Shown one piece after another: positions 5,315-27,814 of a stretch of DNA of 50,475 bases (the stretch's first letter is position 1; the number at the start of each line of letters is the position of its first letter). The stretch lies in the NCBI GenBank assembly GCA_003251535.1, contig QKFD01000021.1, forward strand, positions 1-50,475. Reading direction: 5' to 3'. The stretch comes from Chromatiales bacterium. GTDB lineage: Bacteria > Pseudomonadota > Gammaproteobacteria > Thiohalomonadales > Thiohalomonadaceae. The notes beneath the pieces are model-generated. The model was not told the origin of the DNA. It ran no database searches and saw only the letters and a program-made list of their open reading frames with translations. A program made the translations under genes and the position numbers.

Positions 5315-5671
5315 ATGAGCGAGATGCAGGACTACCACTCCAGCCTGAGCGACCCCAGCAGCCGCAAGTTCGAGACCTTCTCCTATCTGCAAGAGCTGGA
5401 TCCGGGACAGATCCGGCGCCAGGTGGAGTACATCGTGCGCCGCGGTTGGAACCCGGCGGTCGAGCATACCGAACCGGAGAACGCCTTCGACCACTACTGG
5501 TACATGTGGAAACTGCCGCTGTTTGGCGAGGCCGATGTAGATCGCATCCTGGCGGAGGCGGAGGCGTGCCATAAGGCCCACCCTAACCACCATGTGCGGC
5601 TCATTGGCTACGACAACTACAAGCAGTCCCAAGGCACGGCGATGGTCATCTATCGCGGGCCGACGGTCTGA
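5315..5671 (+). CDS. cbbS: RuBisCO small subunit, form IA
   Basis: Small subunit of the L8S8 holoenzyme, 118 residues, the normal length for form IA. It begins [20 protein letters not shown] and contains the conserved [21 protein letters not shown] region, [10 protein letters not shown], and the C-terminal [20 protein letters not shown] segment seen in proteobacterial small subunits. The ATG follows AGAGGTG at 5304-5310. The 51-nt gap from cbbL and the hairpin after the gene suggest cbbLS is the most abundant part of a longer transcript. Confidence 0.97.
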
Positions 5672-5675
5672 TGCC

Positions 5676-5704
5676 GTGGGGGCGCCCGAGGTGGGCGCCC
5701 CCAC
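5676..5704 (+). terminator. Hairpin after cbbS (attenuator or 3'-stabiliser)
   Basis: A perfect 12-bp stem, 5676-5687 with 5693-5704, and a 5-nt loop starts 4 nt after the cbbS stop. There is no T-run, so it is more likely a partial terminator or a processing/stability element that keeps cbbLS mRNA above cbbQO than a full stop. It sits in the 167-nt gap before cbbQ. Confidence 0.55.
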
Positions 5705-5838
5705 CGCTACGGCTGGGGCAGCCGGTGGTGCCAGCGGTCGCAGTGCGCCACCTCTGCGAGAGTAGAACCCCCCTGGAGATAGCGTGACTGGAGCGCCGCC
5801 CAGCGCTGCGTCGGTCACGGCGGATAAGGGCATACAAG

Positions 5839-6639
5839 ATGAGCGCACAAGAGCAGTATCAGGTTTCGGAGCGCCCCTACTACCGCCCGGTGGGTGAGGA
5901 GGTGGAGCTGTTCAGCGCCGCCTACGCCGCCCGGATGCCGGTGATGTTGAAGGGGCCTACAGGGTGCGGTAAATCCCGCTTTGTCGAGTACATGGCGTGG
6001 CATCTGGGCCGCCCCCTCATCACCGTTGCCTGCAACGAGGATATGACCGCCTCCGATCTGGTGGGGCGCTACCTGCTCGATGCCAGCGGCACCCGTTGGC
6101 AGGATGGTCCCCTCACCGCCGCCGCCCGTATCGGCGCCATCTGCTATCTGGATGAGGTGGTGGAGGCGCGCCAAGACACCACGGTGGTGATCCACCCCCT
6201 CACCGACCACCGTCGCACCCTGCCGCTCGACAAGAAGGGGGAGCTGGTGGTGGCCCACCCCGACTTCCAGCTGGTCATCTCCTACAACCCCGGCTATCAG
6301 AACCTGATGAAGGACCTGAAACAGTCCACCAAACAGCGCTTTGGTGCCCTCGACTTCCACTATCCGGCAGCGGCGGTGGAGGCGGAGGTGGTGGCCCACG
6401 AAGGGGGGATCGAGCTGGCCGTGGCGGAGAAGTTGGTGCAGGTGGCGCACCGCTCACGCAACCTGAAGGGGCACGGCCTGGATGAGGGGATCTCCACCCG
6501 GCTGCTGGTCTACGCCGCCAGCCTCATCGCCAAGGGGATCGCCCCCCAGGCGGCCTGTGCCATGACCCTGGTGCGCCCCATCACCGATGACCCCGATATG
6601 CGCGAGACCCTGGACGCCGCCGTCGCCACCTATTTCTGA
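5839..6639 (+). CDS. cbbQ: RuBisCO activase subunit CbbQ (MoxR-type AAA+ ATPase)
   Basis: With CbbO it forms the Rubisco activase of form I-bearing chemoautotrophs: the CbbQ hexamer hydrolyses ATP to strip inhibitory sugar phosphates from RuBisCO. It has 266 residues with Walker A GPTGCGKS at 39-46, the VACNEDMTASDLVGR segment, Walker B AICYLDEVVEA, the HPLTDHRRTLPL insert, sensor 1 ISYNPGYQ and a C-terminal EGISTRLLVYAASLI region. These match the CbbQ/NirQ/NorQ clade; the position after cbbS decides for CbbQ. The ATG lies 167 nt beyond cbbS. Confidence 0.95.
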   Translation: MSAQEQYQVSERPYYRPVGEEVELFSAAYAARMPVMLKGPTGCGKSRFVEYMAWHLGRPLITVACNEDMTASDLVGRYLLDASGTRWQDGPLTAAARIGAICYLDEVVEARQDTTVVIHPLTDHRRTLPLDKKGELVVAHPDFQLVISYNPGYQNLMKDLKQSTKQRFGALDFHYPAAAVEAEVVAHEGGIELAVAEKLVQVAHRSRNLKGHGLDEGISTRLLVYAASLIAKGIAPQAACAMTLVRPITDDPDMRETLDAAVATYF

Positions 6640-6693
6640 GGCGGTGGGCGCTACCGCTATACTGCGCCCCTTTGCGTACTGGAGAGAGGGGCC

Positions 6694-7281
6694 ATGTTGG
6701 ATCGGGAGTACATCGAAGGGCTGCGGCGGGACATCGTATTCGATACCACCCTGCGCGGATTTCCACTCAGGTTCCACTCCACCTGGGGGATCTTCTCCCC
6801 ACGGGAGATCGATGCCGGTACCCATCTGCTGCTGGACCACATCGAAGTCGGGGAGGCGGACCGCTGTTTTGATCTCGGCTGCGGCTACGGCCCGCTCGGC
6901 ATCGCCCTGGCCAAGCTGGCGCCCCAAGGCCACAGCCTGATGGTGGACCGCGACTTCATCTCAGTGGAGTACGCCCGCAAGAACATCGCCGCTAACGCCC
7001 TCGGCAACGCCGAGGCGCTGCTCTCCAACGGTTTTGATCAGATCGGCGAGCGCCGCTTCGACTGCGTAGTCTCCAACATCCCGGCCAAGGTGGGTAAGGA
7101 GATGCTGCACCTGCTGCTGTTTGATGCCTGGCGCCACCTGGAGCCGGGGGGGCGGATCTGGGTGGTCACCATCACCGGTCTGCGCCGCTTCATCGAACGC
7201 AACTTTAAAGAGGTGTTCGGCAACTACGACAAGGTGAAGCAGGGCAAAGACTACACCGTGGCGATGGCCGTGCGGGAGTGA
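6694..7281 (+). CDS. Class I SAM-dependent methyltransferase (MTS/RsmC-like) inside the cbb operon
   Basis: A 195-residue Rossmann methyltransferase: motif I DLGCGYGPLG (about 60-69), VDRDFISVEYARKNIAANAL as the acidic-ribose motif, and FDCVVSNIPAK (122-132) where RsmC/RlmG/HemK relatives have NPPF or NPPY. The motif IV sequence SNIPAK is a conservative variant, so the target may be RNA, protein or a small molecule; I cannot tell which. It lacks the extra N-terminal domain of RsmC. It is set between cbbQ and cbbO with 54-nt and 73-nt gaps and the same codon use, so it is probably co-transcribed with them. A role in modifying RuBisCO or its activase is only a guess from position. Confidence 0.8.
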   Translation: MLDREYIEGLRRDIVFDTTLRGFPLRFHSTWGIFSPREIDAGTHLLLDHIEVGEADRCFDLGCGYGPLGIALAKLAPQGHSLMVDRDFISVEYARKNIAANALGNAEALLSNGFDQIGERRFDCVVSNIPAKVGKEMLHLLLFDAWRHLEPGGRIWVVTITGLRRFIERNFKEVFGNYDKVKQGKDYTVAMAVRE

Positions 7282-7354
7282 ACCCGCTCCGGCGGCCAGC
7301 GCGCTAATGCGATCAAGGGGGCGCGGATGATTCGCGCCCGCGCGGAGGCAGCCC

Positions 7355-9703
7355 GTGAGCATTCAACTCGAAGAGTACCGCGACTATCTGGAGCAGGCCG
7401 ATCCCCACCTGCACGACACCCTCACCGCCAGCTTTGCCGAGGCGGCGCGGAGCATGTCCCCCCGTGGCCTAGTCCACTGGCTGGAGGGGGCCAAGGCGCT
7501 CGGTAAGCTGGGGCGGGGCCGCGACCTAGTGATCAACTACGTCGAGGCGATGCCGGCGGTGGTCAAGGAGGTGGGGGAGGAGGCGATCCCGGAGGCGGTC
7601 AGTGCGGCGATGAAGCTCGCCTCCATGGTCAGCGGCGAGGTGATCGCCCTGATGTTTGCCAACCTGCCGGTGGCGGCGCGGCGGTTGGGGGATATCGAAC
7701 TCTATAAGCAGTATCTCCAGCTGCTGCATCAGCTCTCCGCCAAGGCGCCGCGTGGCCTGCGCCCCATGCTTGGTCGGCTCGACCAGCTCTTCGCCAAGCT
7801 GACCCTGGGTGGCCTGCGGCGCTGGGCGCTATGGGGCGCCCAGGCCCACGCCCGCGACTTCCTCGCCTTGGCCCAGTACTTCGCCCTGGAGACCCAAGAT
7901 AGCCTGGCGGTGCTGCAACGGGAGCGGCGCGGCACCCTGTTTGTCGATCAGCAGCGCAAACTCAACTTCTACCTGCGGGCGCTCTGGGGGCGTGACTTCT
8001 TCCTCCGCCCCACCTCGGGCGATATCGAGTCCCGCGTTGGCACGCGGCCATTCATCGAGGAGCGGGTGATCCACCTGCCCGATGCCTACGACGATCTGCA
8101 CGGCCTCTCCGGCAAGGAGCTTTATCGCGCCAGCGCCTGCCATGCTGCCGCCCACCTTGCCTACACCCTGCGCCCCCTCTCGGCCGAGGCGCTCACCCCG
8201 GTGCAGATGTTCATCATCGCCCTCGTTGAGGATGCCCGCATCGAGGCGCTGGCGATCCGTGACTTCCCCGGGTTAAAGGCGCTCTGGCTGCCGTTCCATC
8301 AGGCGGTCGCCGCGGCCCCGGGCGAGCGGCATGAGGTGGTGCGGCTGCTGGAGCGGCTCGCCCATGCCCTGCTGGCAGGGCGGGCGGAGGCGGCCGATGG
8401 CGCGCTCATCGCCGAGTGGGTGGCCCTGTTCCAGGCCGAGCTGGCGCAGCGGCCGCAGGCGGTCCAGCTCTCGTGGGATCTCGGGGTGGGGCTCTACAAC
8501 CGTCTGTTGGCGCACAGCCACCTGCCGAGCTTGCGGCTGCTGGAGCAGCAGTTTGCCGTCCCCTATCGGGACGATAACCGCTACCTCTGGGCCTTTGACG
8601 AGCAGCAGTGGCAGGAGGCGGACTACCTGGCCAGCTTGGCCGGTCAGGTGCGGCGTCAGGTCAACGTGATGGAGTTGGTCAATGAGCTGGACTGCGAGCT
8701 GGCCGGTGACGATGCGCAGGAGATCTGGCACCTGGAGTCGGAGTTCTTCCGCGATGGTGATCCACTCGGGGTCTCCCTCAACCAACTGGAGGGCAAGCCG
8801 CCGGTGAGCGAGCCGTTCCACTATCCGGAGTGGGACTACGCCGTGCAGCTCCACCGCCCCGACTGGGTGACGGTGCTGGAGCGGCGCCCAGAGGCAGGGG
8901 ATCCACAGCAGGTGGAGGAGACCCTGATCGAGTACCGCCCCATCGCCAACCGGCTGCGCCATATCATCGACGCCGTACAGCCACAGGGGGTGATCCGCCA
9001 GCGGCGGCAGGAGGAGGGGGAGGAGATCGACCTCGACGCCGCCATCCGCGCCATGGTGGATCTCCGCATGGGGCAGACCCCGGATCCGCGCATCGGCATC
9101 CGCCTGAAGCGCACCACCCGCGACCTCGCCGCGCTGGTGCTCATCGATCTCTCCGAATCCACTAACGACACCCCACCCGGTGCCGATCGTCCCATCGTCC
9201 AGCTGGCGCGGGAGGCCACCACCCTCCTGGCCTGGGCGCTGGAGGCCATTGGGGACCCCTTTGCCATCCACGGCTTCGCCTCTGACGGCCGCCACGACCT
9301 GCAATACTTCCGCTTCAAGGAGTTTGACCAGCCGTGGGATGAGGGCGCCAAGGGGCGCCTCGCCGGGATGCGGGGCGGCCTCTCCACCCGCATGGGGGGG
9401 GCACTGCGCCACGCCGCCCACCACCTCCAGCGGCAACCGCGCCAGAAGCGGCTCATCCTGCTCATCACCGACGGTGAACCGGCCGATATCGACGTGCGGG
9501 ATCCCCAATACCTGCGCCACGACACCCGCAAGGCGGTGGAGGAGCTGGCCGCCCAGGGGATCCACACCTACTGTCTCACCCTCGATCCGCAGGCCGACAG
9601 CTATGTGGCCCGCATCTTCGGCGCCAACCGCTACACCGTGCTGGATCGGGTGGAGCGGCTGCCGGAGCAGCTGCCGCAACTCTTCTTACAGTTGACCCGC
9701 TGA
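7355..9703 (+). CDS. cbbO: RuBisCO activase adaptor CbbO (von Willebrand A protein)
   Basis: Partner of CbbQ: the vWA domain docks the activase onto RuBisCO while the N-terminal region sits on the CbbQ hexamer. It has 782 residues, normal for CbbO. The N-terminal helical part starts MSIQLEEYRDYLE. The vWA domain lies near residues 590-782, with the MIDAS motif DLSES at 598-602, the ARLSTRMGGA-like GGLSTRMGGALRHA stretch and LILLITDGEPADID completing the metal site. Start is GTG at 7355. It is 73 nt after the methyltransferase gene and closes the cbb operon; the next genes are on the other strand. Confidence 0.94.
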   Translation: MSIQLEEYRDYLEQADPHLHDTLTASFAEAARSMSPRGLVHWLEGAKALGKLGRGRDLVINYVEAMPAVVKEVGEEAIPEAVSAAMKLASMVSGEVIALMFANLPVAARRLGDIELYKQYLQLLHQLSAKAPRGLRPMLGRLDQLFAKLTLGGLRRWALWGAQAHARDFLALAQYFALETQDSLAVLQRERRGTLFVDQQRKLNFYLRALWGRDFFLRPTSGDIESRVGTRPFIEERVIHLPDAYDDLHGLSGKELYRASACHAAAHLAYTLRPLSAEALTPVQMFIIALVEDARIEALAIRDFPGLKALWLPFHQAVAAAPGERHEVVRLLERLAHALLAGRAEAADGALIAEWVALFQAELAQRPQAVQLSWDLGVGLYNRLLAHSHLPSLRLLEQQFAVPYRDDNRYLWAFDEQQWQEADYLASLAGQVRRQVNVMELVNELDCELAGDDAQEIWHLESEFFRDGDPLGVSLNQLEGKPPVSEPFHYPEWDYAVQLHRPDWVTVLERRPEAGDPQQVEETLIEYRPIANRLRHIIDAVQPQGVIRQRRQEEGEEIDLDAAIRAMVDLRMGQTPDPRIGIRLKRTTRDLAALVLIDLSESTNDTPPGADRPIVQLAREATTLLAWALEAIGDPFAIHGFASDGRHDLQYFRFKEFDQPWDEGAKGRLAGMRGGLSTRMGGALRHAAHHLQRQPRQKRLILLITDGEPADIDVRDPQYLRHDTRKAVEELAAQGIHTYCLTLDPQADSYVARIFGANRYTVLDRVERLPEQLPQLFLQLTR

Positions 9704-9835: not shown

Positions 9836-10150
9836 TCAAAATATCCACGCCACCAGCAGCCAGATGATGACGAAAAATAGAAAGAAGCTGCCAAGAATGA
9901 ATTGAATCTCCCCCAACAACCCATCGCCAGAGGCCACGGCAAAGAGGACCATGATAAAGGTGGTCACAAAAAATGAGATGACGGCCGCCCCTTTCAGATC
10001 AATCCCGGGCGACAGCTGGGTGGTGATCAGCTCAGAGAGCATGGGGAGTAACAGGAGAACGGCGGCGCCCAGGAGGAGGATCAGAACAAGGAGCAGGGCC
10101 GCGACTTTTCTTGACTCGTTTTTATTTTTGTTGTCGGTCTCGCCGATCAT
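9836..10150 (-). CDS. Small three-span membrane protein of unknown function
   Basis: A 104-residue protein with a hydrophilic Lys/Asn/Glu-rich start (MIGETDNKNKNESRK) followed by three hydrophobic spans (about 16-38, 55-76 and 80-103), so nearly all of it is in the membrane. I do not recognise the family. Its start overlaps the stop of the PH-domain gene in an ATGA (10147-10150), so the two are translationally coupled and probably work together. AT-rich codons such as AAA and AAT at the N-terminus differ from the very GC-rich neighbours and may indicate a more recent arrival. Confidence 0.7.
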   Translation of the reverse strand: MIGETDNKNKNESRKVAALLLVLILLLGAAVLLLLPMLSELITTQLSPGIDLKGAAVISFFVTTFIMVLFAVASGDGLLGEIQFILGSFFLFFVIIWLLVAWIF

Positions 10151-10536
10151 GACATCGGCTCATCGTTTTGCCGCGCACCGATGAGTTCGCTGATTTTGTT
10201 TGGGTCAGGGAGGCCATGGGCGGAGATCTCAGGGGCATCGCCCGCGGTATATATCTCGATCGAACCGACGCCAAAGAGACGGTTAAAAAACGATTGCGTC
10301 ACCTTGGTGGTTCGGACGCTATTGATGTTGATTTCAGAGCGCTCTTTGCTCAGCAGTCCCTTTTCGTAGATGATCTCATGTTCATTGACGGTTAACTTTG
10401 AAGACTTATTGCGCAGATGCCAGTTGAGCAGGATCAGCAGGCCGATGCCAAGGACTGGGATGAGCAATATCGCCGCAATGAACCCAAGGGGATTATTTTT
10501 AAACATGACTGGGTGTTCTGAATAGAGCGTGCTCAT
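10147..10536 (-). CDS. Bacterial PH-domain membrane protein (bPH2/DUF304-like)
   Basis: About 129 residues from the second ATG of an ATGATG pair, chosen because GGAGA at 10543-10547 lies 6-7 nt before it (10536) and only 3-4 nt before the first (10539). An N-terminal transmembrane span (about 15-40, NPLGFIAAILLIPVLGIGLL) is followed by a cytoplasmic bacterial PH-like domain: LTVNEHEIIYEKGLLSKERSE, ININSVRTTKVTQSFFNRLFG, VGSIEIYTAGD. The pattern 'I.Y..G.L......I....I......Q....RLFG.G.I.I.TAG' is typical of the bPH2 family. An open frame continues upstream to 10806, but that part is low-complexity Arg/Pro-rich and looks non-coding. Confidence 0.8.
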   Translation of the reverse strand: MSTLYSEHPVMFKNNPLGFIAAILLIPVLGIGLLILLNWHLRNKSSKLTVNEHEIIYEKGLLSKERSEININSVRTTKVTQSFFNRLFGVGSIEIYTAGDAPEISAHGLPDPNKISELIGARQNDEPMS

Positions 10537-11091
10537 CATCTGTCTCCAGTGGGATGCGTGGGCGGGTCTCCGGCGGGTGCCCCTCTCTCCCCCGCATTCT
10601 GCTTGGGGGTTAGGGGGCGAGCGGGCGGCAGCGGACCCCACGGTGTCTGTGTCGGGGCGGGCAGTGGCCCCAAGGCGTGAGTGGCGCCATCCCGTTAGCG
10701 GTGCCAAGGGGGGAGCCGGCGGACCACAATCTAGCCGTAAATGGCGCCTGGATCCAGTGGTCGGCGCGGGATGAACAATGCCCACGGTGGGAACGTAGCG
10801 GTTCACCTAAGCGGTGAGTCTAAAAAGGGAACTTGATCCATTACTTTGACTATTGAGTGTGGTAGTCCTCCCGTGCGCTCTGCCAAGGTCCCTTTTCTAT
10901 CTCATTCCGTTGGAGGGCTCTCCAGACGGATGGCGGGTGCTCGCCTGCGGCCATCCCAGCCATGCCTGGCCCAACACCCAAGCGAGGGCAGTAATCACTA
11001 AATAGGCCATGGCGACTTCACGACCTTGTGGATTTATTAGACGGTGGCCCCGCCTGGACATCAAACCAGATAATCAGTCGCCAGGCGCCCC

Positions 11092-11798: not shown

Positions 11799-13322
11799 CT
11801 ACTGAGGCCCTATACCTAGGCCCCTGAGCCGCCGCCTGGCGAGTCGGCGCTGGAGGCGAAAGTAGAGCCGTTGGGCGGCCGCGAGGCCGTAGGTAGCGGC
11901 CCCTAGCAGGGTGCATAGACCGAGTAGTTGGGCGGCGACCACTCCCCCCTCCACCGGCAGCCATAGGCTCGCCAAGGTGAGCGGCAGACCATAGATAAGA
12001 TTGGCATTCGCTAACGGTCGGGTGCGCTGGGGCCGGAGCACGAGCGCCAAGCCGTTGAAGAACAGGATGGCCAAGGCAACGGCACCCCAGAGCGCTGGCG
12101 GTGGGGCGAACCAGAGGGCTGTCGTGGTGCCTATAAACAACAGCGCCAGCCCCACTTGGCGCCAGGGTCCGGCGATAGAGCTGAGGAGATCCCATAACAG
12201 TAGCCGTCCAAAATCGAGGGTGATGGCCGTCATGTAGAGCCAGGTGAGTCCGGCGAGCAGATACAACGGCGCCCCAAACATGACCATGAGGATCTCCTGG
12301 GGTTCCAGGTGATTCCGGTAGGCGATGAAGCCCCCCGTCCCCAGCCACATGAGTAGCAGCAGGGTGGTAAAAAGGGCGTTGCGCTTCAACCAGGCACTGA
12401 GCAGGAACTGGGCGGCGCCACTGCTAGCCAGATTCTGGGTGGCGATATAGCGCCGCATGAAGAACGGGTAGAGGCCGCCAAGGAGGAGGGGCAGACCCAC
12501 AAAATAGATAAACCCAGCCGTGGCACGTTGGGGATCGGGTGCGAGATAGAGGAGCAACCCTCCTAAGGCGGCATAGAGCAGGAAGATCCCCGTCAGCCAG
12601 AGACCCACCGCTCCTAGGCGGGTGCCTGGGCCGCCGCGCAGATGGTGGGTCTTCAATAGGTGGCTGAGCAGCTGCTGTCCGGCGGCGGAGCTGGGATCGT
12701 TTTGCAGGAGTTGTGAGGTGAGTTGAGCGGCACTGTCGATGGCATCTTGGTCCGCCAGGACTTCAGCCAGGCGGTTGGTGAGATAGGGGTCGCTAGGGGT
12801 TAATCGCAGCCCCTCTTTATACCAGTAGGCCGCCTCCGGCAGCTGTTGGCGTTGCACTGCCACATCGCCTTTGAGCGCAAAGCCGTAGTTTATCCCGGGA
12901 TAATTTTGCAGCAGGGTATCGGCAATGAGATCGGCCTCGGCCGCTTTGGCGTTGGGAAGATATAACGCTGCCCAACCGCGTAGATAGAGCGGGCGTGCCG
13001 CGCTGGGATCGATCTTCAAGGCCGTTGCCGCAGAGCGGTAGGCCTCCATGGCGCGGGAGAGGTAGACGTAGATTTCGGTCTGGAGGGTGTACCCCCCCAC
13101 CTGGCTGGGATCGAGGGCTATGGCCTTTTTGGCCCACTGCAACGCCTCTTTGAACTGCTCAAGCTGGTTATAGACCTGCGCCATCATGCAGGTGGCACGG
13201 TAGTGGTCCGGCTGCTGGGCAAGGATGCCATGGAGCAGTTGCTGTGCATCCGTTGTGCGTTGCCGCTGCAAAAACTGGCTGGCCAACTCCAGCCGGGTGG
13301 CGATGGGGACCTCCGTGTGCAT
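11799..13322 (-). CDS. TPR protein with multi-span C-terminal membrane domain
   Basis: A 507-residue protein in two halves. Residues 1-230 are tetratricopeptide-like helical pairs (AQQLLHGILAQQPDHYRATC, ALQWAKKAIALDPSQVGGYT, AYRSAATALKIDPSAARPLY, AAYWYKEGLRLTPSDPYL). From about residue 237 to 490 there are seven or eight hydrophobic spans, followed by a very basic tail (RLQRRLARRRLRG). It begins 3 nt after the stop of the TPR-AAA gene, so the two are certainly one unit. TPR domains usually hold protein partners, so it may anchor the AAA protein at the inner membrane. Function unknown; no specific family recognised. Confidence 0.85.
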   Translation of the reverse strand: MHTEVPIATRLELASQFLQRQRTTDAQQLLHGILAQQPDHYRATCMMAQVYNQLEQFKEALQWAKKAIALDPSQVGGYTLQTEIYVYLSRAMEAYRSAATALKIDPSAARPLYLRGWAALYLPNAKAAEADLIADTLLQNYPGINYGFALKGDVAVQRQQLPEAAYWYKEGLRLTPSDPYLTNRLAEVLADQDAIDSAAQLTSQLLQNDPSSAAGQQLLSHLLKTHHLRGGPGTRLGAVGLWLTGIFLLYAALGGLLLYLAPDPQRATAGFIYFVGLPLLLGGLYPFFMRRYIATQNLASSGAAQFLLSAWLKRNALFTTLLLLMWLGTGGFIAYRNHLEPQEILMVMFGAPLYLLAGLTWLYMTAITLDFGRLLLWDLLSSIAGPWRQVGLALLFIGTTTALWFAPPPALWGAVALAILFFNGLALVLRPQRTRPLANANLIYGLPLTLASLWLPVEGGVVAAQLLGLCTLLGAATYGLAAAQRLYFRLQRRLARRRLRGLGIGPQ

Positions 13323-13325
13323 GGT

Positions 13326-14618
13326 TCAGAACCGATGGCGGCGTAGGAACTCGGCTACTTCGTTGTATTCGCCGCTGCTATTGGCAAACATGACGTAGTT
13401 ATTGGCTGCTTCAAACCAGGTCTTGGTGGTCGCCTTGGTCTCCCCGAGCGCCTTGCTGAGATCGCGTTGGGTGACCGGTTCGGTGGTACCCGAGCGCAAC
13501 GCCCGCTCCATGGCGTACTCCGTGGCTAGCTCGCAGATGAGGCGGAGATCGGCCCCAGAGAAGCCGCGACTCTTCTTGACGATGCTATCGAGATCGAGCT
13601 TCTGCGTGGGGCGGTCCTGTAGATGGAACTCCATGATCTGGCGGCGGGCGGGGTCGTCAGGGGGCGGAATAAACAGGGTGCGATCAAAGCGGCCTGGGCG
13701 CCGGAGGGCCGTATCCACATCCCACGGCAGATTGGTGGCTGCCAGTACAAAGACGGAGTCTCGTTTGCCATCGACACCATCCAGCTCCACCAGCAGCTGG
13801 TTGACGATATTACGCGAGGCGGAACCACCAAGATTGCTGCGCTTGTGGCCGATGGCATCCAGCTCATCGAAAAACAGCATTGCGGGTGCCGTGCTGCGGG
13901 CGTACTCAAACAGCCCATGCAGGCGCTTCTCGCTCTCCCCCAGCCACATATCCATAACGTCATGCAGACCTACGGAGACGAAGCTAAACCCCAGCTCACC
14001 CGCCAGCGCCTTGGCGATGTAGGTCTTACCGCAACCCGGTGGACCGTAAAGTAGCAGCCCTCCCGCCGCCCCCTTACCGTAGGTGCGGGAGAGCGCGGGA
14101 TTACGGATGGGACCAAGGAATGCCATATCTAGGCGGCGTTTGACCTCTTCTAGGCCCGCAACATCATCCAAGGTGACCGAGGGACGGATAAACCCCCGGC
14201 CGGGCTCTGTTGGGTCATCCGTAGCGCCACCGTCGATGACCTGAAAACGTCCCACTTGGCGGCGTGTTGCGCCCTCGGTTGAGGCGGCGGGGGCGGGATC
14301 GGTGGGGGGTGGGCTCGGCCTCTCTGAAGGGATTGGCTTCGTGCCGATCTCCTCCACAGGGAGATTGAGGGCGGCCAGGATCTGGTTGTAGGCCTGGGCC
14401 AAGGTGGGTTGATTGCAGGCCAGGGCAGCCTGGGCCGCGCCCCGTAGCGCCTCAGGATTGACGGGATCGATGGCCAGGAGGGCGCTGTATTGGGCGAGGC
14501 CATCGGTTGGGCGGCCTGCCTCCAGATAGGTACGGGCGAGATGGAGCTGGAGGGCGGGGTTGTTGGGGGTGCTGACTAGCGCCTGTTCTAGCGCCGCGAT
14601 AACGGGGTTTAGATCCAC
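13326..14618 (-). CDS. TPR-AAA fusion ATPase (classic AAA family)
   Basis: A 430-residue protein. Residues 1-85 form two or three TPR-like hairpins (LARTYLEAGRPTDGLAQYSA, LLAIDPVNPEALRGAAQAAL), then a Pro-rich linker (95-115) and one classic AAA module from about 145: DVAGLEEVKRRL, Walker A GPPGCGKT (192-199), pore-loop region MWLGESEKRL (224-233), Walker B LFFDELDAIG with Asp251/Glu252, sensor 1 VLAATNLPW, arginine fingers in RRPGRFD (307-312), and the FSGADLRLICELA lid. All catalytic residues are present, so it should be an active hexameric ATPase of the FtsH/Cdc48/Vps4 type without a protease. The start is GTG at 14618 with a weak ribosome site. It is followed 3 nt later by the TPR/membrane gene. 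Confidence 0.9.
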   Translation of the reverse strand: MDLNPVIAALEQALVSTPNNPALQLHLARTYLEAGRPTDGLAQYSALLAIDPVNPEALRGAAQAALACNQPTLAQAYNQILAALNLPVEEIGTKPIPSERPSPPPTDPAPAASTEGATRRQVGRFQVIDGGATDDPTEPGRGFIRPSVTLDDVAGLEEVKRRLDMAFLGPIRNPALSRTYGKGAAGGLLLYGPPGCGKTYIAKALAGELGFSFVSVGLHDVMDMWLGESEKRLHGLFEYARSTAPAMLFFDELDAIGHKRSNLGGSASRNIVNQLLVELDGVDGKRDSVFVLAATNLPWDVDTALRRPGRFDRTLFIPPPDDPARRQIMEFHLQDRPTQKLDLDSIVKKSRGFSGADLRLICELATEYAMERALRSGTTEPVTQRDLSKALGETKATTKTWFEAANNYVMFANSSGEYNEVAEFLRRHRF

Positions 14619-14972
14619 TGCTGACTCACTCTTGGCGGAGGGCCGTGGGCAGGAATCAACACTCGCCCATCGATCTTAAGAAAAACTTAATATTGCACCC
14701 ATTGCCTGGTGATGTCGAGGCGTGCATCCCCCTACTGTTGCCCAGCTCTCCCGCCTCGCCATGCGCCTAAAAAGGCTACGGCAGGGGGGGGATGGAGCGA
14801 TAGCCCTGGAGGTGGTGGCTGTCGTCTCGGTCCGGCAACGGCGCCGTTGTCCCCCCCTTTCTGCCGTGGTCACCACGTCGTCTCACTGCCCTAATTGACA
14901 GTGAGCCCACGATGTTTAGGCGATGGCTGTCGGGGTTGTTCCGCCCATCACTGGTGGGCGGGCAATGGGGCG
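14619..14972. other. 354-nt intergenic region within the PspA-AAA cluster
   Basis: Between the GyrB-like gene and the TPR-AAA gene. It contains a perfect 14-bp palindrome CAACGGCGCCGTTG at 14836-14849 and an AT-rich patch near 14678-14695 close to the TPR-AAA start, which could carry a separate promoter for the last two genes. No coding frame with family features was found. Confidence 0.45.
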
Positions 14973-15902
14973 TTAGCGGTGGCGAATCGCCTCTTGGATC
15001 TGGGCGGCGTGGTACCACAGCTGCTGGTAGACGTAGCCCTCCAGGTCGCTGCCCAGCGTCTTCTCCCGGATGCAGCCGGCCCACTCTGGATTGGGGGTTC
15101 GGATGGCGATGGCGAGGTAGAAGCCGTGCTGGCAGTCGCCCTCGGCCAGGATCTGACGTAGCGCCCGTATCGCCCCATCTACGTGGGCGCCGCCGGCCAG
15201 GGTGCGCTCCTGGTTGAGGAAGGAGAGGCACTGGATGGCATCTCCGTAGAGTGAAATGAAGGCGAGGTCCAGCTCCCATTGAGGCGAGTAGGCGGCAAAC
15301 TGCACCGGCTCTATCGGCGGCAGGGTGCGCCCCGCGGTCTCTTCCGCAATACGCTGGGCGAGGCCGCTGGGGTAGAGGTAGGTGCTCTCCCCCAGTTGGT
15401 GGTGGGCCACGGTGATGGCTACCCCCGGGTGGAGGGCGGCGAAGTCCCGTAGCCAGCCGCGCAGGGAGAAGGGTTCTACCGCCGTGACACCGTTGAAGAG
15501 GCCGGGATCGAGGTGCAGGGTGATGTGGTTGCGCTCTTGCTCGCGCGCCTCCCGCGCCCCCTTTAGTTCGCCGCTGTGGGCTTGCACATACAAGCCGCGG
15601 GCGGTGGCATGCAGCTGTTGGGCCGCTGAGGTGATCATGAAGAGATCGACCAGCCGCGGCTGGCAGCGGGGGAGGGGACGTTTGGGCTCCTCAAAATCGG
15701 TGAGCAGTAGGGGGCGGCCGTTATCTTCCAGGGTGATGGCGTCGTTCTCGCCCAGCTCGATGCGTACCCAGTCGGCCCCCCGGGCAAGCACCGCCTGGGC
15801 GGCCAGCGAGCGGGCGGCATAGGTGGGGGCGGCGGAGGTGCCGACGTTGCCGAAGTACATCCCCGGCCGTCTCCTGATGGACTCCTTGAAGCTCATATTC
15901 AC
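14973..15902 (-). CDS. Stand-alone GyrB/ParE-like protein lacking TOPRIM and ATPase motifs
   Basis: A 309-residue protein related to the N-terminal half of type IIA topoisomerase B subunits. Residues 6-18 (KESIRRRPGMYFG) match the KRPGMYIG arm; LEDNGRP (59-64) stands where GyrB has VDNGRGIP; SFLNQERTLAGGAHVDG (227-243) matches the SFVNNINTxEGGTH transducer motif; RTPNPEWAGCIREKTLGS (268-285) matches the VPxPxFEGQTKxKLGN strand. The catalytic Glu/Asn N-box, the second Gly of DNGRG and the Gly-rich GGLHGVG lid are not visible, so ATP turnover is doubtful. No TOPRIM, C-terminal winged helix or zinc module follows. The start GTG at 15902 is 6-7 nt after AGGGAG. It lies inside the PspA-AAA cluster. 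Confidence 0.8.
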   Translation of the reverse strand: MNMSFKESIRRRPGMYFGNVGTSAAPTYAARSLAAQAVLARGADWVRIELGENDAITLEDNGRPLLLTDFEEPKRPLPRCQPRLVDLFMITSAAQQLHATARGLYVQAHSGELKGAREAREQERNHITLHLDPGLFNGVTAVEPFSLRGWLRDFAALHPGVAITVAHHQLGESTYLYPSGLAQRIAEETAGRTLPPIEPVQFAAYSPQWELDLAFISLYGDAIQCLSFLNQERTLAGGAHVDGAIRALRQILAEGDCQHGFYLAIAIRTPNPEWAGCIREKTLGSDLEGYVYQQLWYHAAQIQEAIRHR

Positions 15903-15921
15903 TGCAATCTCCCTCCTTGGT

Positions 15922-15945
15922 CAGGGGGGCGTGGCGCCCCCCCTG
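15922..15945 (-). terminator. GC-rich hairpin between the SBP-OmpA and GyrB-like genes
   Basis: Arms CAGGGGGGCG (15922-15931) and CGCCCCCCCTG (15935-15945) close a 3-nt loop in the 96-nt gap. On the minus strand there is no following T-run and the Shine-Dalgarno of the GyrB-like gene comes right after, so it could be an attenuator or RNase barrier separating the first four genes of the cluster from the last three. Confidence 0.45.
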
Positions 15946-15998
15946 GGTTTATTGTCGGTTGCTGCCTAGCCCCCTGGCCTCGCCCATGTTCGGGAACC

Positions 15999-17669
15999 CT
16001 ACTCCAGGGTGAACCACTGGACCTCTACCCGCCGGTTCATGTCAGAGTCGCTGCCGGCCGGCTCCTCCCAACCCCGCCCGACCACCTCCAGGCGATTCTT
16101 TTCGATGGCAGGGTACTTCTCTAACAACGCCTTGAGAACCGCCTGGGCGCGCTCTTTGGATAACTCCATCGCCTTGAGGGCCATGGAGCGGACGAGCCCC
16201 TCTCCCCCCTTCTGGCGGAACTCGTCCACACGGGCGTTATCGACATGGCCGCGCAGCACCACCACCGAGCCGGGGGAGACCTGGAGGAAGCTCCGGATGG
16301 TCTCCAGATACTCCTGGTTCTGCGGGGCCTTTTTATCCAGCACAGAGGAGTTGGGCTCAAAGAAGAAACGGATATCCTTCGAGAGCAGCGGATCCCCCTC
16401 AATGGCCTGGCGGTTGCCATGGCGAATGGGGGCGATGGCCACCTTCTGATTGGCATATTGGGTTTGCAGCGCCTCCAGCGGTTGCAGATCGGCAAAGCGA
16501 TCGGCATCGGCCGGATTGGGGATGATGCTGGGGCCGTAGGCCAGCACCGAGGATTGGAATATGCCGCTGAACGAGCCGGCGGCATCGATGGTGCCGTTGA
16601 AGAAGGCGAGGCTCTCCGGCAGGTTGACCAGGTGGACCTTGGTCAGCTCTTGGCGGGTCTCCGCCTCGTCCCAGTTGAGCGCCTTGGCCACCAGGGCGGT
16701 GTAGGCCGCGGGCTGTTCCCGCACCAGGCGATTGCCCTCAATGAGGCCGTGGACCAGGCCCTTGACCATCTCCGGGTGGGCTTGGGCAAACCCCTTATTG
16801 ACGGTGAGGATGTCAGCGATCACCAAGAGGTTGCGGTTGGAGGTGAGGATCTTGGCGGCGCCGTTGGAGTTGGCCACCACCTCATCGGTGCGGGGTGACC
16901 AACCGACGCAACCGGCCAGCCGGTGGCTACCGTTCAGCTCTGCCTGGTAGCCGTCGCAGGCGACAAAGGCATCCTGGTAGAAGACCAGGTTGACCGCATC
17001 GGCCGCCGGTGGGGTGTCGAGATCGCGCAGGATGTGGACCGGCAACCCCGCCTCCTGGGCGAGATAGCGGATGAAGAATTCGCTCTCGTTGAACTGGGCG
17101 GCGGCCAGGACCTTCCCCTTCAGCTGGTTGACCGAGGCGATGGTGCTATCCACCACCACCATGTCGGCGCCGCGGGAGAAGCCGATCTGGGCCGGCACGA
17201 CGACCTGGAACTGGCGGCCGAGGGCGGCCAGCACGTCCGTGGTGGTGGCACTGGCGGCAAACTGGCCGTTGTTGAGCTGTGACCAGTTCTCCCCCTCGGA
17301 GAGGGTGAGCTTCACCTGAAAGCCGTAGTGCTTGGCGAAGAAGGAGTCTGGATTGGGGGCCAGGCCGCCGTTGGCGACAATGAGCCCGGCGTAACCGGCG
17401 TACTCGCTGATATCCATCTCCACCACCCCATTCTTTGGCTCGTAGGGGGCGGCTGGGGCGAGGGTTGGCATCCCGCTGGCCGGTTCGATGGGTTGGGGGG
17501 CGCGGCCGGTGGTCGTCGCTGAGCTGCCGGTGGGGGCGCCGGACGAGAGGATGCCGAGGTCACTGCCACCTGGCTTGAAGACGAGCCAGCCACCCAGCCC
17601 CACCAGGGCGAGGACCAAGAGGATGGTGATGATAAGACCCGCGGCGTTGCCGCGCTGTTGCTGGTTCAT
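15999..17669 (-). CDS. Membrane-anchored substrate-binding protein fused to an OmpA domain
   Basis: A 556-residue envelope protein. An N-terminal transmembrane anchor (about 10-31, AAGLIITILLVLALVGLGGW) is followed by a Ser/Thr/Pro/Gly linker, then a periplasmic binding domain of the NMT1/TauA/phosphate-binding type (about 85-410; MDISEYAGYAGLIVANGG, VNKGFAQAHPEMVKGLVHGL). The C-terminal 130 residues are an OmpA peptidoglycan-binding domain: IRFFFEPNSSVLDKKA, VVVLRGHVDNARVDEFR, ALSKERAQAVL-like helix and VVGRGWEEPA then NRRVEV, with the conserved Asp and Arg present. No ABC permease or ATPase is nearby, so it is more likely a sensor or tether than a transporter part. Its ATG overlaps the stop of the upstream coiled-coil gene (ATGA, 17666-17669). 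Confidence 0.9.
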   Translation of the reverse strand: MNQQQRGNAAGLIITILLVLALVGLGGWLVFKPGGSDLGILSSGAPTGSSATTTGRAPQPIEPASGMPTLAPAAPYEPKNGVVEMDISEYAGYAGLIVANGGLAPNPDSFFAKHYGFQVKLTLSEGENWSQLNNGQFAASATTTDVLAALGRQFQVVVPAQIGFSRGADMVVVDSTIASVNQLKGKVLAAAQFNESEFFIRYLAQEAGLPVHILRDLDTPPAADAVNLVFYQDAFVACDGYQAELNGSHRLAGCVGWSPRTDEVVANSNGAAKILTSNRNLLVIADILTVNKGFAQAHPEMVKGLVHGLIEGNRLVREQPAAYTALVAKALNWDEAETRQELTKVHLVNLPESLAFFNGTIDAAGSFSGIFQSSVLAYGPSIIPNPADADRFADLQPLEALQTQYANQKVAIAPIRHGNRQAIEGDPLLSKDIRFFFEPNSSVLDKKAPQNQEYLETIRSFLQVSPGSVVVLRGHVDNARVDEFRQKGGEGLVRSMALKAMELSKERAQAVLKALLEKYPAIEKNRLEVVGRGWEEPAGSDSDMNRRVEVQWFTLE

Positions 17670-18535
17670 GCCTTCTCTCCCAGGCTGCGTCGGCCGGCGC
17701 TCGCTGACGGCACCGGCTGCATGAATGTGGCTATGGGTGGTTGATCGGTGAAGTCGTCGATGGCGGCGAAGATCTCCCCCTGGTCTTTGATCCAGCGGTT
17801 GGTCTCACCGAGGGAGGCGGATAGCACATCCACCGAGCGGGCGAGGCTGCTGGCGTCGGTGGAGAGGAGGGTCTGCTCATGCACCAGGGCCAGCTGTTGA
17901 CGGATCCGCTCCAGTTCGGCATCGACGATGGCGAGGCGGCGGCCAGCATCGCTATGGGTGCGCTGGCGTTCGTTGATGAGCCGCTGCTGGTCCTCCAGGC
18001 TATCCCGTAGCTGGGGGTCGATATCGTCCACGGCCAGCCGCCTCTCCAGCTCCGCCAGTTTGTCTTGGATGTTCTCCCGCTCCCGCTCGCCCACCTGCAC
18101 CACCGCCTCTAGCGCGCCGCGGGCGGCCAGTAGCTTCAGATGGAGCCAACAGAGTTGGGCGAGTTGGCCGGCCTGGAGGCCGGAGGGATCGACCCGGGTC
18201 AGCTCCTGGGCCACCGCGGCGCACTGCTCCTCCATCGCCGTCTGGCGCCGGCGCTCCTCGGGGGGGATCTGGCGGATAAGGGCGGCGCGGCGGGCCGGCC
18301 AGGGGTCGGGTTGGGGCGGTGGGTTGTATTTGAGATCCACCACTGCGCGGAAGCGGCGATTGTTGGCCAGGAAGGTGAGGTAGGCTACCTCCAGCCCAGC
18401 GCCGATGAGCAGAAAGCCGGGATTGAGCAGCGTCCCCAAGAGGCCGAAGGCGGCAAGGCCGAGCCAGTTGGGGGGGATCGGCATCCCTAGCGGTCGGGCG
18501 TTGAAGGCGGCTGAGAGGTAGCGCTGGGCGCTCAC
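17666..18535 (-). CDS. Membrane hairpin/coiled-coil protein of the PspA-AAA cluster
   Basis: A 289-residue protein read from GTG at 18535, whose GTGA overlaps the stop of the AAA gene; the longer open frame to 18796 is antisense-like Pro/Arg/His-rich sequence overlapping the AAA gene and is rejected. Residues about 23-57 form one or two membrane spans (NWLGLAAFGLLGTLLNPGFL). The rest is soluble and strongly helical, with coiled-coil heptads about 150-245 (ENIQDKLAELERRLAVDD, QQRLINERQRTHSD, AELERIRQQLALVHEQ). No known family recognised. The overlaps on both sides couple it tightly to the AAA ATPase and the SBP-OmpA protein, so it may link the cytoplasmic AAA/PspA layer to the membrane. Confidence 0.85.
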   Translation of the reverse strand: MSAQRYLSAAFNARPLGMPIPPNWLGLAAFGLLGTLLNPGFLLIGAGLEVAYLTFLANNRRFRAVVDLKYNPPPQPDPWPARRAALIRQIPPEERRRQTAMEEQCAAVAQELTRVDPSGLQAGQLAQLCWLHLKLLAARGALEAVVQVGERERENIQDKLAELERRLAVDDIDPQLRDSLEDQQRLINERQRTHSDAGRRLAIVDAELERIRQQLALVHEQTLLSTDASSLARSVDVLSASLGETNRWIKDQGEIFAAIDDFTDQPPIATFMQPVPSASAGRRSLGEKA

Positions 18536-20202
18536 CGACGGTTCTCCGGCAGGTTGGCGAGGTGGCGTAACGGCTCGGGGACGAAGTTGAGATCGGTCGC
18601 CTCGCGGATGGCGATGCGCATCTGGAACTCCAGCACATCCCGCGGTACCGGCGGCTGATACCCCTCCAGCGCCTCGGTGACGGCGGCGATGAAGGTGAGC
18701 GACCGGGTGCGCATGAGGCGGTAGGCCTTGACCGCCAGCGCCTCGGCCGCCCCCGGGGTGAGCAACACCGGCATCTTCGACTTGAGGCTCTTCCACGCCT
18801 CAGCGGAGAGGATGATTCCGCGCCGTTTGCAGAGTGCCCCCAGCAGGGCGGCGCTCTCGTCGGTGTTGGTGGTGGGCATCAGCGGCACCTTCACATCGAC
18901 TCGGCCGGGGCGCTTGAGATCCACCTCAATGAGATCGGGGCGGGAGGAGGCGAGCAGCCAGAGGATGCGCCCGCGGTTTTTGCTGTTACCCATCTCCTCG
19001 GCAATCATGGCGTAGAGGCGGCCGGAGAGGCCGGAGTCACCACTCCCTGCGTCGCGCTTGCCTAGGGTCTGGTCCGCCTCGTCGATGAAGACGATGGCGC
19101 GGCCGAGGCCGTGGACCAGGCGGAAGATCTTCTCCAAATTCCCCTCGGAGGAGCCGACCCAGCGGTCACGGAAGTTCTTCAGCCGCACCACCGGGACCCC
19201 CGCCTCGCCGGCCAGACACTCCACCAGGAAGGTCTTGCCGGTGCCGACTGGACCGCACACCAGGTAGCCCATGGGCAGGGCGGCGAGATCGCCGCTCCGC
19301 CAGAGGCTGGCGTCCTGACGCAGCCAGCGCTTCAACGCCTCCTGGCCGTGGTAGTGGCTGAGGTCTTTGGTGGACTCGATGAACTCCACCAGCCCCTCGC
19401 TCTCGGTCTCCACCAGCCCCTTCTTGATGGTTACTAGGTCGCTGTTGGCGATCGCCTGCTGGTGGTAGGCGCGGCGTCGCACCAGGCTCTCCAGGGCGGC
19501 CACCCCCACCCCAGCCAGTGCCTCGCCCAACGCCTTGGGGTTGCTCTCGCTGGGGAAGGCGCTGGGGTGGCTGGTGGCCAGCTCACTGAGCGCCTGGGTC
19601 AGGGTCTCGGCATTGGGGAGCGGGAGGCGCACCCGGGAGACCCGCGGGCTCATGGCCACCAGCGGGTGGACATCGTGCAGGTTGTCGGCAATCAGCAGGC
19701 TGGCAAACGGCATCTCGGTGAAGGGGGCCTCGCTGGACCACTCCCGCACCAGGCTGGCGAGGCTGCCCATGTCATGGCCCCAGTTGGGGCTACTCGGCAG
19801 CACCTGATCGGCCGCCAGCATGAGGAAGGCCACCTGCGGCGGCTCCCCTCCCTGGCCAAGGGCGCGCAGGTTGGCGAGATACTTGATGTAGTGGCTGACA
19901 AACTCCACCGCCGGCAGGGGTTGGCGGGAGAGGGTGTGGAGCGCCTCGGCACCGGGCCAGTGGGCCACCAGCTCGCCCCCCCGCTCGACTCGCAGACCGT
20001 TACCCAGGTCATAGCGGAACAGCACCTGGAATGGTGCCAACAGGGTGGCCTCGATGAAGCCAGTCAGGTTGCCTAGGCCACCGCCGGGTAGCGGCATACG
20101 ATCATGGACATTGCCGTAGAGCAGGAACTGGCCATGGGCACCGCTCTCAAAGGCGGTGGCTACCTCCTCGGCCCAGGTGGGGCTGCCGTTGGGGAGCGTC
20201 AT
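18532..20202 (-). CDS. AAA ATPase with a degenerate N-terminal half, next to pspA
   Basis: A 556-residue protein. The C-terminal half is a full classic AAA module: Walker A GPVGTGKT (317-324), RDRWVGSSEGNLEKIF pore region (345-360), Walker B IVFIDEAD (370-377), sensor 1 LWLLASSRPDLIEVD, arginine fingers in LKRPGRVD (429-436), and a helical lid. The N-terminal half (1-270; FLLYGNVHDRM, FLMLAADQVLPSSPNWG, RVSRVRLPLPN) resembles an AAA-like fold without Walker motifs, as in Ycf46-type or two-tier AAA proteins. It starts 3 nt after pspA. By analogy with Vps4 acting on ESCRT-III it may disassemble or remodel PspA polymers; this is inference from order and fold. Confidence 0.88.
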   Translation of the reverse strand: MTLPNGSPTWAEEVATAFESGAHGQFLLYGNVHDRMPLPGGGLGNLTGFIEATLLAPFQVLFRYDLGNGLRVERGGELVAHWPGAEALHTLSRQPLPAVEFVSHYIKYLANLRALGQGGEPPQVAFLMLAADQVLPSSPNWGHDMGSLASLVREWSSEAPFTEMPFASLLIADNLHDVHPLVAMSPRVSRVRLPLPNAETLTQALSELATSHPSAFPSESNPKALGEALAGVGVAALESLVRRRAYHQQAIANSDLVTIKKGLVETESEGLVEFIESTKDLSHYHGQEALKRWLRQDASLWRSGDLAALPMGYLVCGPVGTGKTFLVECLAGEAGVPVVRLKNFRDRWVGSSEGNLEKIFRLVHGLGRAIVFIDEADQTLGKRDAGSGDSGLSGRLYAMIAEEMGNSKNRGRILWLLASSRPDLIEVDLKRPGRVDVKVPLMPTTNTDESAALLGALCKRRGIILSAEAWKSLKSKMPVLLTPGAAEALAVKAYRLMRTRSLTFIAAVTEALEGYQPPVPRDVLEFQMRIAIREATDLNFVPEPLRHLANLPENRR

Positions 20203-20205
20203 CGA

Positions 20206-20943
20206 TTACTGGCCCTCACTGCCCATGGTGCGTTGGCCCGGTGCGCTGGCATTGGCGCTGGGTTCGATGGCGATCCCTTCGCGGGCGGCGAAGTCGGCCA
20301 GCGCCTGGTCGGCCAGGGCGTCCATCTCCGCCTCTTTGAGGTGGATATCGGTCATGTCCACAGAGTCCTTGGCGACGCGGGCGCGGCCAGCGGCCTGGGT
20401 GCGCTCCTCCTCCACCATCTCATGCAGTCGATTCAGGGTGTCGCCGGAGCTGCCGATCTCGGAGACCATCCCAGAGGCCATCTCGTGCATCTCGGCCATG
20501 GCGGTCTGCATCTTGACGTCGGCGATGGCCCCTTTGAGGGCGTCGATCTTGGCCCGGGCAGAGTTGACCGCCACATCCCGAGCCTTCACCAGGTTGTGAT
20601 AGGTCTCCTCCGCCTGCTCCAGCTGGCGCCGGTTCTCCTCCAGCTCCCGCTGTACGGTCTGTAGCCGCAGGGCGTACTGGGCGGCCGCCTCACGGGTACC
20701 GGCCCGCAGCAGGGCAGTGGTCTTGGCCCGTACCTCCCGCTCCTCTGACTCCAGTTTGCGCACCTGGCCCATCAACCGCTCCGCCAGTCCGGCGTGGGAG
20801 GCGAGGCCTTGGTTGAAGCGGGCGATCTGCTCGCGCAGATTCTCCTTCTCCACCTCCAACAGCGCCTCCGGGTTATTCCGCTCCATGTCGCGGATGAAAA
20901 GACTCAGGATGCCTTTGAACAGATTGACGATACGCGCGTACAT
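20206..20943 (-). CDS. pspA: PspA/IM30 (VIPP1) family membrane-stress protein
   Basis: A 245-residue member of the PspA/IM30 family, bacterial relatives of ESCRT-III that bind stressed inner membranes and form rods and rings. It begins MYARIVNLFKGILSLFIRDM, the amphipathic helix 0/1 typical of the family, then long charged helices (NPEALLEVEKENLREQIARF, YALRLQTVQRELEENRRQLE, VNSARAKIDALKGAIADVKM) and a C-terminal helix DALADQALADFAAREG as in VIPP1/PspA helix 6. The start at 20943 has GGGGAG six nt upstream; the frame is open to 21135 but that extension has no family features. No pspF/pspBC lies in the window, and I found no convincing sigma54 promoter. It heads the AAA/coiled-coil/SBP-OmpA operon. 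Confidence 0.92.
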   Translation of the reverse strand: MYARIVNLFKGILSLFIRDMERNNPEALLEVEKENLREQIARFNQGLASHAGLAERLMGQVRKLESEEREVRAKTTALLRAGTREAAAQYALRLQTVQRELEENRRQLEQAEETYHNLVKARDVAVNSARAKIDALKGAIADVKMQTAMAEMHEMASGMVSEIGSSGDTLNRLHEMVEEERTQAAGRARVAKDSVDMTDIHLKEAEMDALADQALADFAAREGIAIEPSANASAPGQRTMGSEGQ

Positions 20944-26443: not shown

Positions 26444-27814
26444 CTACTTATCACTGTGCTTATAGTCGATGCCGAGGGAGCGCAGTTTGCGATAGAGGTG
26501 GGTCCGCTCTATCCCGGCGTGCTGCGCCACCTTGTTGATGGCCCCCTCATATACCTTGAGCTGGTGCTCCAGATAACCCTTTTCGAACAGCTCCCGCGCC
26601 TCGCGCAACGGCAGCTCAAAGGCCATCGGCGCCGCCCCGGTGGTCACCGGTTGGGTGCCAAGGGCGCGCTCCACCTCCTCCATGCCGATCTCCGGGCCAG
26701 ACCCGACGATCAGCAGACGTTGCACCAAGTTCTTGAGTTCCCGCACATTGCCCGGCCAGTGGTAGTTGCGGAGTCGGTTTTGGGCGCCGACGCTGAAGGT
26801 GCGCAGCGGCAGCCGATCGTGGCTGGCAAAGAAATCGACATAGAAGCTGAGTAGGTCCGGCACATCCTCGCTATGTTCCCGCAGCGGCAGCAGGTGCAGC
26901 GGCACCACATTGAGGTGGTAGAAGAGGTCGTTCCGCAGGCGCGCCTCTTTGACCCGCAGGGTGAGGTCGTAGTGGGAGGCGGCGACCACCCGCACGTCGA
27001 TCTTCACGGTCTCGCTGCCACCCACCCGGTGATAGCTGCCGGTCTCCAGCGCCCCTAGCAGGCGGGCCTGGGTGGCGAGATCCATATCACCTACGTCATC
27101 GAGGAAGAGGGTGCCGCCATTGGCCTGCTCCAGGAGGCCAAACTGCACCCGGTCGGCCTCCTCGCTACCAAACAGTTCGTTGGTCTGGTTCTCACTCACC
27201 AGGGAGGCGATGCTGACATCGATGAAGGGGCCATCACGGCGCGGGCTGATGCTATGCAGGTAGCGGGCGATGGTCCCCTTGCCCGCCCCTGACTCACCGC
27301 TGATGAGCACCGAGGTATCGTGCTGGGCGATGCGCTTGACCTGCTCCTTGAGCTGGGTCATGGCGGGGCTGTGGCCCACCGGCTCGTCCAGCGGCTGGAG
27401 CTGGTGGCGCAGGCCGACATTCTCCCGGTAGAGGTTGTAGGCCTCCAGTCCCCGTTGGACTGTCACCAGTAGCTTGGCCAGGGAGATGGGCTTTTCGATG
27501 AAGTCGTAGGCGCCGAGGCGGGTCGCCTCCACCGCGGTCTCTACGGTGCCGTGGCCCGACATCATCACCACCGGCGTGGTGAGGGCCCCTTCAGCGGTCC
27601 ACTCCCGCAGCAGGCTGATGCCGTCGATATCGGGCATCCAGATGTCGAGCAGCACCAGATCGGGGCGGCGCGCCTTGCGGGTGCGGCGGGCGCTGGCCCC
27701 ATCTTGGGCTACCTCCACCTCATAGCCCTCGTCTTCGAGGATCTCCTTGAGTAGGCTGCGGATGTCGGGTTCGTCGTCAACGACGAGGATATAGGCGTTG
27801 CCTTGCGCGCTCAT
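26444..27814 (-). CDS. ntrX: NtrX-type response regulator lacking the GAFTGA loop
   Basis: A 456-residue NtrC-like regulator paired with NtrY. The receiver domain (1-125) keeps the acidic pocket (Asp13/14), phospho-acceptor Asp57 in LVLLDIWMP and Lys108. The AAA domain has Walker A GESGAGKG (173-180), but the segment [14 protein letters not shown] (213-226) has no GAFTGA, and Walker B reads TLFLDDVGD with Asp240 in place of the usual Glu. The C-terminal Fis-type HTH ends [20 protein letters not shown]. NtrX proteins often lack GAFTGA and act as sigma70 regulators or repressors; this one probably does not activate sigma54. It starts 5 nt after ntrY. Confidence 0.93.

Follow-up and report, generated by a model that had tools for sequence, protein, structure and literature searches.

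A PspA subfamily with a conserved C-terminal motif and its tandem AAA ATPase: a candidate ESCRT-III/Vps4-like pair at the core of a bacterial four-gene operon

The window analyzed here, the whole of a 50,475-nt stretch of a Chromatiales bacterium contig (QKFD01000021.1), carries a contiguous block of seven minus-strand genes (11799-20943 in window coordinates, used throughout) that begins with a gene for PspA, a membrane-repair protein belonging to the ESCRT-III superfamily, and a gene for an AAA ATPase, termed AAA1. These are followed by genes for a coiled-coil membrane protein (CC), a fusion of a solute-binding protein to an OmpA domain (SBP-OmpA), a GyrB-like protein, and two TPR proteins, one an AAA ATPase (TPR-AAA) and the other a membrane protein (TPR-membrane). 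An earlier note on this DNA, made from the sequence alone, had described the block, and its gene map was borne out: all seven open reading frames are present where it placed them, pspA and AAA1 are separated by 3 nt, the AAA1/CC and CC/SBP-OmpA junctions each overlap by 4 nt, and 3 nt separate TPR-AAA from TPR-membrane. Domain searches likewise upheld its assignments, namely PspA_IM30, AAA in both ATPases, OmpA with an SsuA-type solute-binding domain, the TPRs, and GyrB, matched weakly over the transducer domain. PspA itself scores 37.7 bits against PF04012, above the curated cut-off of 33.9, and thus belongs to the PspA/IM30 family. The genes do share a strand and are contiguous, as the note's picture of a single block implied, but gaps of 96 and 354 bp set the GyrB-like gene apart from the four coupled genes on one side and from the TPR pair on the other, giving three pieces.

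A profile scan for AAA1 loci across 84,980 GTDB species returned 53 true loci, in Pseudomonadaceae, Lysobacterales, Steroidobacteraceae, some Rhodospirillales, four Verrucomicrobiota and one member of the Acidobacteria. PspA lies next to AAA1 at 51 of these loci, CC at 48 and SBP-OmpA at 47. Missing partners correspond to contig ends (L051, L057) or to non-proteobacterial genomes, and every proteobacterial locus whose contig permits checking contains all four genes, including one from Pseudoxanthomonas beigongshangi (L058, contig in G355), which belongs to the same class, Gammaproteobacteria, as the window genome. The four proteins have also diverged congruently, with pairwise distances that correlate at 0.58-0.87 (permutation maximum 0.27), most strongly between CC and AAA1 (0.87), and the 4-nt CC/AAA1 overlap is kept in 36 of 47 loci. 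Neighborhood counts, correlated distances and the retained overlap together define the unit as four genes, and their order, which recurs in distant genomes, is well beyond chance. The four genes, PspA–AAA1–CC–SBP-OmpA (20943-15999), make up a conserved operon. In Verrucomicrobiota and Acidobacteria it occurs in its minimal form, a PspA–AAA1 pair lacking CC and SBP-OmpA, most clearly seen at L081 and L086. Within the window's own lineage the core is patchy, since the genes were not seen downstream of hslU in six same-family genomes, and 75 close and class-level relatives lack an ortholog-like match to AAA1, FtsH and other generic AAA proteins being what matches there. A homolog of the N-terminal part of AAA1 was found in 2 of 397 other sampled genomes of the phylum, and the window sequences form a long branch in the comparison of core-protein distances.

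Table 1. Features of the minus-strand block, listed in the direction of reading
Feature	Coordinates	Strand	Evidence
PspA/IM30 (ESCRT-III superfamily), 245 aa; N-terminal amphipathic helix, C-terminal linker and R-T-M-G motif; AAA-linked subfamily	20206..20943	-	PF04012, 37.7 bits; homologs at 51 loci, 62-77% identity; tail alignment
PspA C-terminal tail, ending GQRTMGSEGQ, with conserved [R/K]x[M/L]G motif	20206..20238	-	52/52 AAA1-linked PspAs; 1/29 controls; absent in AAA-less L171
AAA1, tandem AAA ATPase; degenerate D1 (~1-270), intact D2 (~290-550; GPVGTGKT, FIDEAD, RWVG pore loop, KRPGR)	18532..20202	-	PF00004 on D2; motifs invariant in 40 homologs; model pLDDT 85; tandem-AAA and Vps4 fold matches
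CC; N-terminal membrane hairpin and cytoplasmic coiled coil; no Pfam family	17666..18535	-	Hydropathy; all 48 proteobacterial loci; 4-nt overlap with AAA1 in 36/47 loci
SBP-OmpA; one transmembrane anchor, SsuA-type solute-binding domain, C-terminal OmpA peptidoglycan-binding domain; D477 and R507 conserved	15999..17669	-	Domain matches, hydropathy; 47 loci
GyrB-like neighbor, not core; free-standing GyrB N-terminal region (GHKL and transducer), pseudo-ATPase	14973..15902	-	TIGR01059 and PDB GyrB matches; catalytic motifs lost; no homolog beside core elsewhere
TPR-AAA neighbor, not core; CDC48/FtsH-like single AAA ATPase	13326..14618	-	Absent beside core in 53 loci; GC3 0.715 vs 0.83-0.88 in core
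TPR-membrane neighbor, not core; TPR and ~6-7 transmembrane segments, paired with TPR-AAA	11799..13322	-	Domain search, hydropathy

AAA1 had been taken for a single classic AAA protein, but it is a tandem AAA protein with a degenerate first domain (D1). Its first 270 residues match no Pfam family; in the structural model (predicted local distance difference test, pLDDT, 85), residues 1-429 instead match the tandem AAA proteins Rix7 (Z 18.1), NSF (15.7) and Cdc48 (15.4). D1 lacks the P-loop GKT and the catalytic residues, and the absence of the P-loop GKT indicates that it is dead. The second domain (D2), by contrast, retains its Walker A motif GPVGTGKT, Walker B motif DEAD, KRPGR arginines and WVG pore loop in 40 homologs, with G317-T324, D374-E375, R431/R434 and W348 invariant. 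Judged by its Walker A and B motifs, arginine fingers and aromatic pore loop, D2 is predicted to be an active classic AAA domain. Superposed alone, it matches Vps4 (Z 15.2), and FtsH and PAN score equally well or nearly so.

The PspAs linked to AAA1 share a characteristic tail, in which the last helix is followed by a variable Ala/Pro/Ser linker, the motif [R/K]-x-[M/L]-G, and a few variable residues. This motif is present in all 52 AAA1-linked PspAs, from three phyla (RSMG in 32, RTMG in 12, other variants in 8); its four columns are conserved in 50, 33, 50 and 52 sequences, against at most ~32 for the columns of the linker. In a control set of 29 ordinary PspAs, selected by hidden Markov model, the motif is matched once, by chance and at a non-equivalent position. 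It is missing from the tail of L171 as well, the closest PspA of the subfamily that has no AAA1 (41% identity). Because the bare pairs retain it without CC or SBP-OmpA, the motif follows AAA1, and AAA1 is its most likely reader. Searches of plasmids and viral contigs found no PspA relatives. The L171 locus (G392:C43, 7058-11320) is an AAA-less relative of the operon, in which PspA is encoded together with two membrane proteins, one of them a predicted coiled-coil protein, and with an SBP-VWA fusion where the operon has SBP-OmpA.

Two other accounts of the pair bear on this evidence. AAA1 could act on another client, CC or SBP-OmpA, as its regulator or quality-control unfoldase, with PspA serving as an inhibitory adaptor, much as PspA in enterobacteria inhibits the AAA ATPase PspF by binding to it; the conserved CC/AAA1 overlap and the strong distance correlation between these two proteins would fit such an arrangement. 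We consider this unlikely, as PspA and AAA1 persist together where CC and SBP-OmpA are missing, and the conserved motif sits in the tail of PspA; a similar handle on CC was considered and rejected, as a look-alike occurs in 1 of 49 sequences only, the window's own copy. Nor does AAA1 resemble PspF, being a tandem classic AAA protein rather than a sigma-54 activator, and sigma-54/Psp-type regulation was discounted as no sigma-54 (-24/-12) promoter lies upstream of pspA. Alternatively, the tail motif could have nothing to do with AAA1 and instead direct PspA, as a degron or processing signal, to a general protease (ClpXP or FtsH, for example). ClpXP degrons are typically short and C-terminal, and HslUV is encoded ~1.3 kb upstream. 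This account appears slightly less likely still, because PspAs without AAA1, the closest relative included, lack the motif even though such proteases are widespread in bacteria, and because it is followed by variable residues, whereas many degrons end at the C-terminus.

The remaining two core proteins are membrane proteins. CC combines an N-terminal membrane hairpin of two transmembrane segments with a long cytoplasmic coiled coil, by hydropathy. SBP-OmpA has one transmembrane segment, a periplasmic solute-binding domain, and an OmpA domain in which the peptidoglycan-binding Asp and Arg are conserved. No transporter lies directly beside the core among the families shared by at least 7 of the 53 loci, and with no conserved adjacent transporter family, a role as sensor or tether is more likely for the solute-binding domain than one within a transporter. 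The proposal that CC and SBP-OmpA extend the PspA–AAA pair to the periplasm holds in Proteobacteria only.

Taken together, these data suggest that this is probably a membrane-remodelling operon, in which AAA1 would extract PspA subunits from membrane polymers via their C-terminal motif, in the manner of Vps4. Polymerization on membranes is established for the ESCRT-III-type PspA family, and the window PspA would similarly polymerize on the stressed inner membrane. AAA1 would then be its dedicated remodeller: docking of substrate or of other subunits probably falls to the dead D1 ring, and the active D2 ring, through its Arg-Trp-Val-Gly pore loop, would grip the flexible PspA C-terminus by [R/K]-x-[M/L]-G. 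With ATP, AAA1 would extract or unfold subunits from the polymer and so turn over the PspA coat. In Proteobacteria, CC and SBP-OmpA may connect AAA1 and PspA, across the inner membrane, with the cell wall, and would probably position or trigger them.

Several observations weigh against such a role. Vps4 binds ESCRT-III through its MIT domain, and no MIT domain was found in AAA1, in which AAA is the sole Pfam match and the N-terminus is modelled as an AAA fold. At one verrucomicrobial locus (L077), an AAA1 of 54% identity lies behind a small lipoprotein-like gene with no adjacent PspA. A single AAA-less member of the PspA subfamily came to light, as a search for further AAA-less relatives of L171 found none. 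Finally, the motif could bind a different partner or act as a degron. Because it lacks a MIT domain, AAA1 is not a member of the Vps4 family; the full-length CdvC/Vps4 model scores 28.4 bits on it, against a cut-off of 650, and its tandem architecture also departs from the single cassette of that family. AAA1 may nonetheless be Vps4-like in action.

The resemblance to ESCRT-III and Vps4 (CdvB and CdvC) lies in the association of an ESCRT-III-superfamily polymer protein with an AAA protein bearing a Trp pore loop, and in a short conserved motif in the substrate tail, comparable to MIM. As with Vps4/CdvC-type ATPases, the AAA1 gene adjoins that of an ESCRT-III-type substrate with a conserved short C-terminal motif. 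AAA1 differs in being a tandem protein with a dead D1 and no MIT, and [RK]x[ML]G has no sequence relationship with the helical MIM elements. With the enterobacterial pspFABC system the core has PspA in common, but its AAA partner is not PspF-like and, as the earlier note had observed, pspB, pspC and pspF are absent from the neighboring genes scanned around the core. Elsewhere in the window, an NtrY/NtrX-like two-component pair (26447-30039) includes a sigma-54 activator, which is not PspF since it has a receiver domain.

The closest precedent is in the gene neighborhoods described by Ravi et al. 2024 (PMC11237479), which include PspA with a tandem AAA protein whose N-terminal copy is inactive and a PBPB-OmpA protein; a second association that they describe joins a TPR/6TM protein to a VPS4-like AAA (e.g. 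ACB74714.1). ATP-dependent remodelling was predicted there for such PspA–AAA pairs. The gene set is thus not undescribed, as had been thought possible, both associations being in print. Our core agrees with these descriptions in PspA, a two-domain AAA with a dead first copy (a definition into which AAA1 falls), the solute-binding and OmpA fusion, and the analogy to ESCRT/Vps4. Similarly, TPR-AAA and TPR-membrane resemble their VPS4-like AAA and TPR/6TM pair in kind, by description. Their longer operons optionally contain an ABC ATPase and permease, whereas no transporter family shared by 7 or more loci was seen directly next to those here; CC is a fixed member here, unlike in the neighborhoods that they describe, and the tail motif goes unmentioned in their account of them. 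What is new here is the AAA1-specific motif in the PspA tail, the occurrence of PspA–AAA1 as a bare pair in more than one phylum, and the identification of the GyrB-like protein as a dead member of the GHKL proteins. The idea of an ESCRT-III/Vps4-like pair, also reached by the earlier note, had already been published as a prediction. It is now well supported: gene linkage is conserved, the proteins have diverged congruently, D2 is intact and has a Trp pore loop of the Vps4 type, and the tail motif tracks the AAA protein.

The note had further proposed that all seven genes form one system, to be checked by counting their co-occurrence across genomes. That count upheld the four core genes, which recur together over the 53 loci, but the GyrB-like, TPR-AAA and TPR-membrane genes lie beside the core at none of them, the kind of scattering that the note itself had named as speaking against its proposal. 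A seven-gene system restricted to the window's lineage would be consistent with the shared strand, the contiguity without any opposite-strand gene, and the presence of AAA proteins and membrane partners in both halves of the block. It is nevertheless very unlikely: the GyrB-like gene is set 96 bp behind SBP-OmpA, with a G+C-rich hairpin between, and 354 bp ahead of TPR-AAA; G+C content at third codon positions (GC3) is 0.72-0.74 in the TPR pair (0.715 in TPR-AAA) against 0.83-0.88 in the core; and 25 core-bearing genomes contain no GyrB-like protein beyond true GyrB/ParE. The best reading is that the three genes form a set of their own next to the core.

By its sequence, the GyrB-like protein is a dead GHKL protein. 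Relative to the GyrB N-terminal region, its catalytic Glu, Mg-binding Asn, ATP lid (GGLHGVG) and QTK loop are replaced or deleted, while the DNG motif and the transducer signature remain; this motif loss rules out an active ATPase or topoisomerase. Its single-sequence fold model is of low confidence (pLDDT 35), and the nearest solved structures are GyrB itself and a 'truncated GyrB' (3cwv). No close homologs were found in the sets searched; viral contigs, plasmids and phages gave none, or distant gyrase-like matches of ~20-25% identity. The transmembrane part of TPR-membrane matches its own genome and, weakly, one other sequence among 398 genomes of the phylum, with no match in 195 Verrucomicrobiota-centred genomes. 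An anti-phage role was considered and set aside, as PADLOC support is limited to generic AAA and the IetA models match generic AAA regions; no subtilase, as IetAS would include, occurs among the genes scanned. Downstream of the block, DNA of lower GC content (0.576) at 9836-10806 carries two further membrane-protein genes, one with a bacterial PH domain and one small, and an autotrophy cluster at 3842-9703 comprises the RubisCO large subunit, CbbQ and a CbbO-like VWA protein, adjoining pyruvate kinase, a class II aldolase and a LysR regulator.

Structural studies of bacterial PspA and Vipp1 have asked whether there is an equivalent of Vps4, with only PspF or chaperones named as candidates (PMC8281802; PMC11746142). 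The loci described here raise an evenly balanced prospect that some bacteria have a dedicated pair of the ESCRT-III/Vps4 kind, in which a PspA subfamily is defined by the C-terminal handle [R/K]x[M/L]G and a tandem AAA protein, its D1 dead and its D2 active, would recognize this handle and disassemble PspA coats. Such a pair would have evolved independently of MIM and MIT, would span three phyla, and would have an optional link to the cell wall through SBP-OmpA. Culturable carriers include Pseudomonas benzenivorans, Pseudoxanthomonas, and relatives of Steroidobacter. A PspA with its own AAA protein and a conserved tail handle makes the question of a bacterial ESCRT-III/Vps4 system testable with two proteins and a four-residue mutation.

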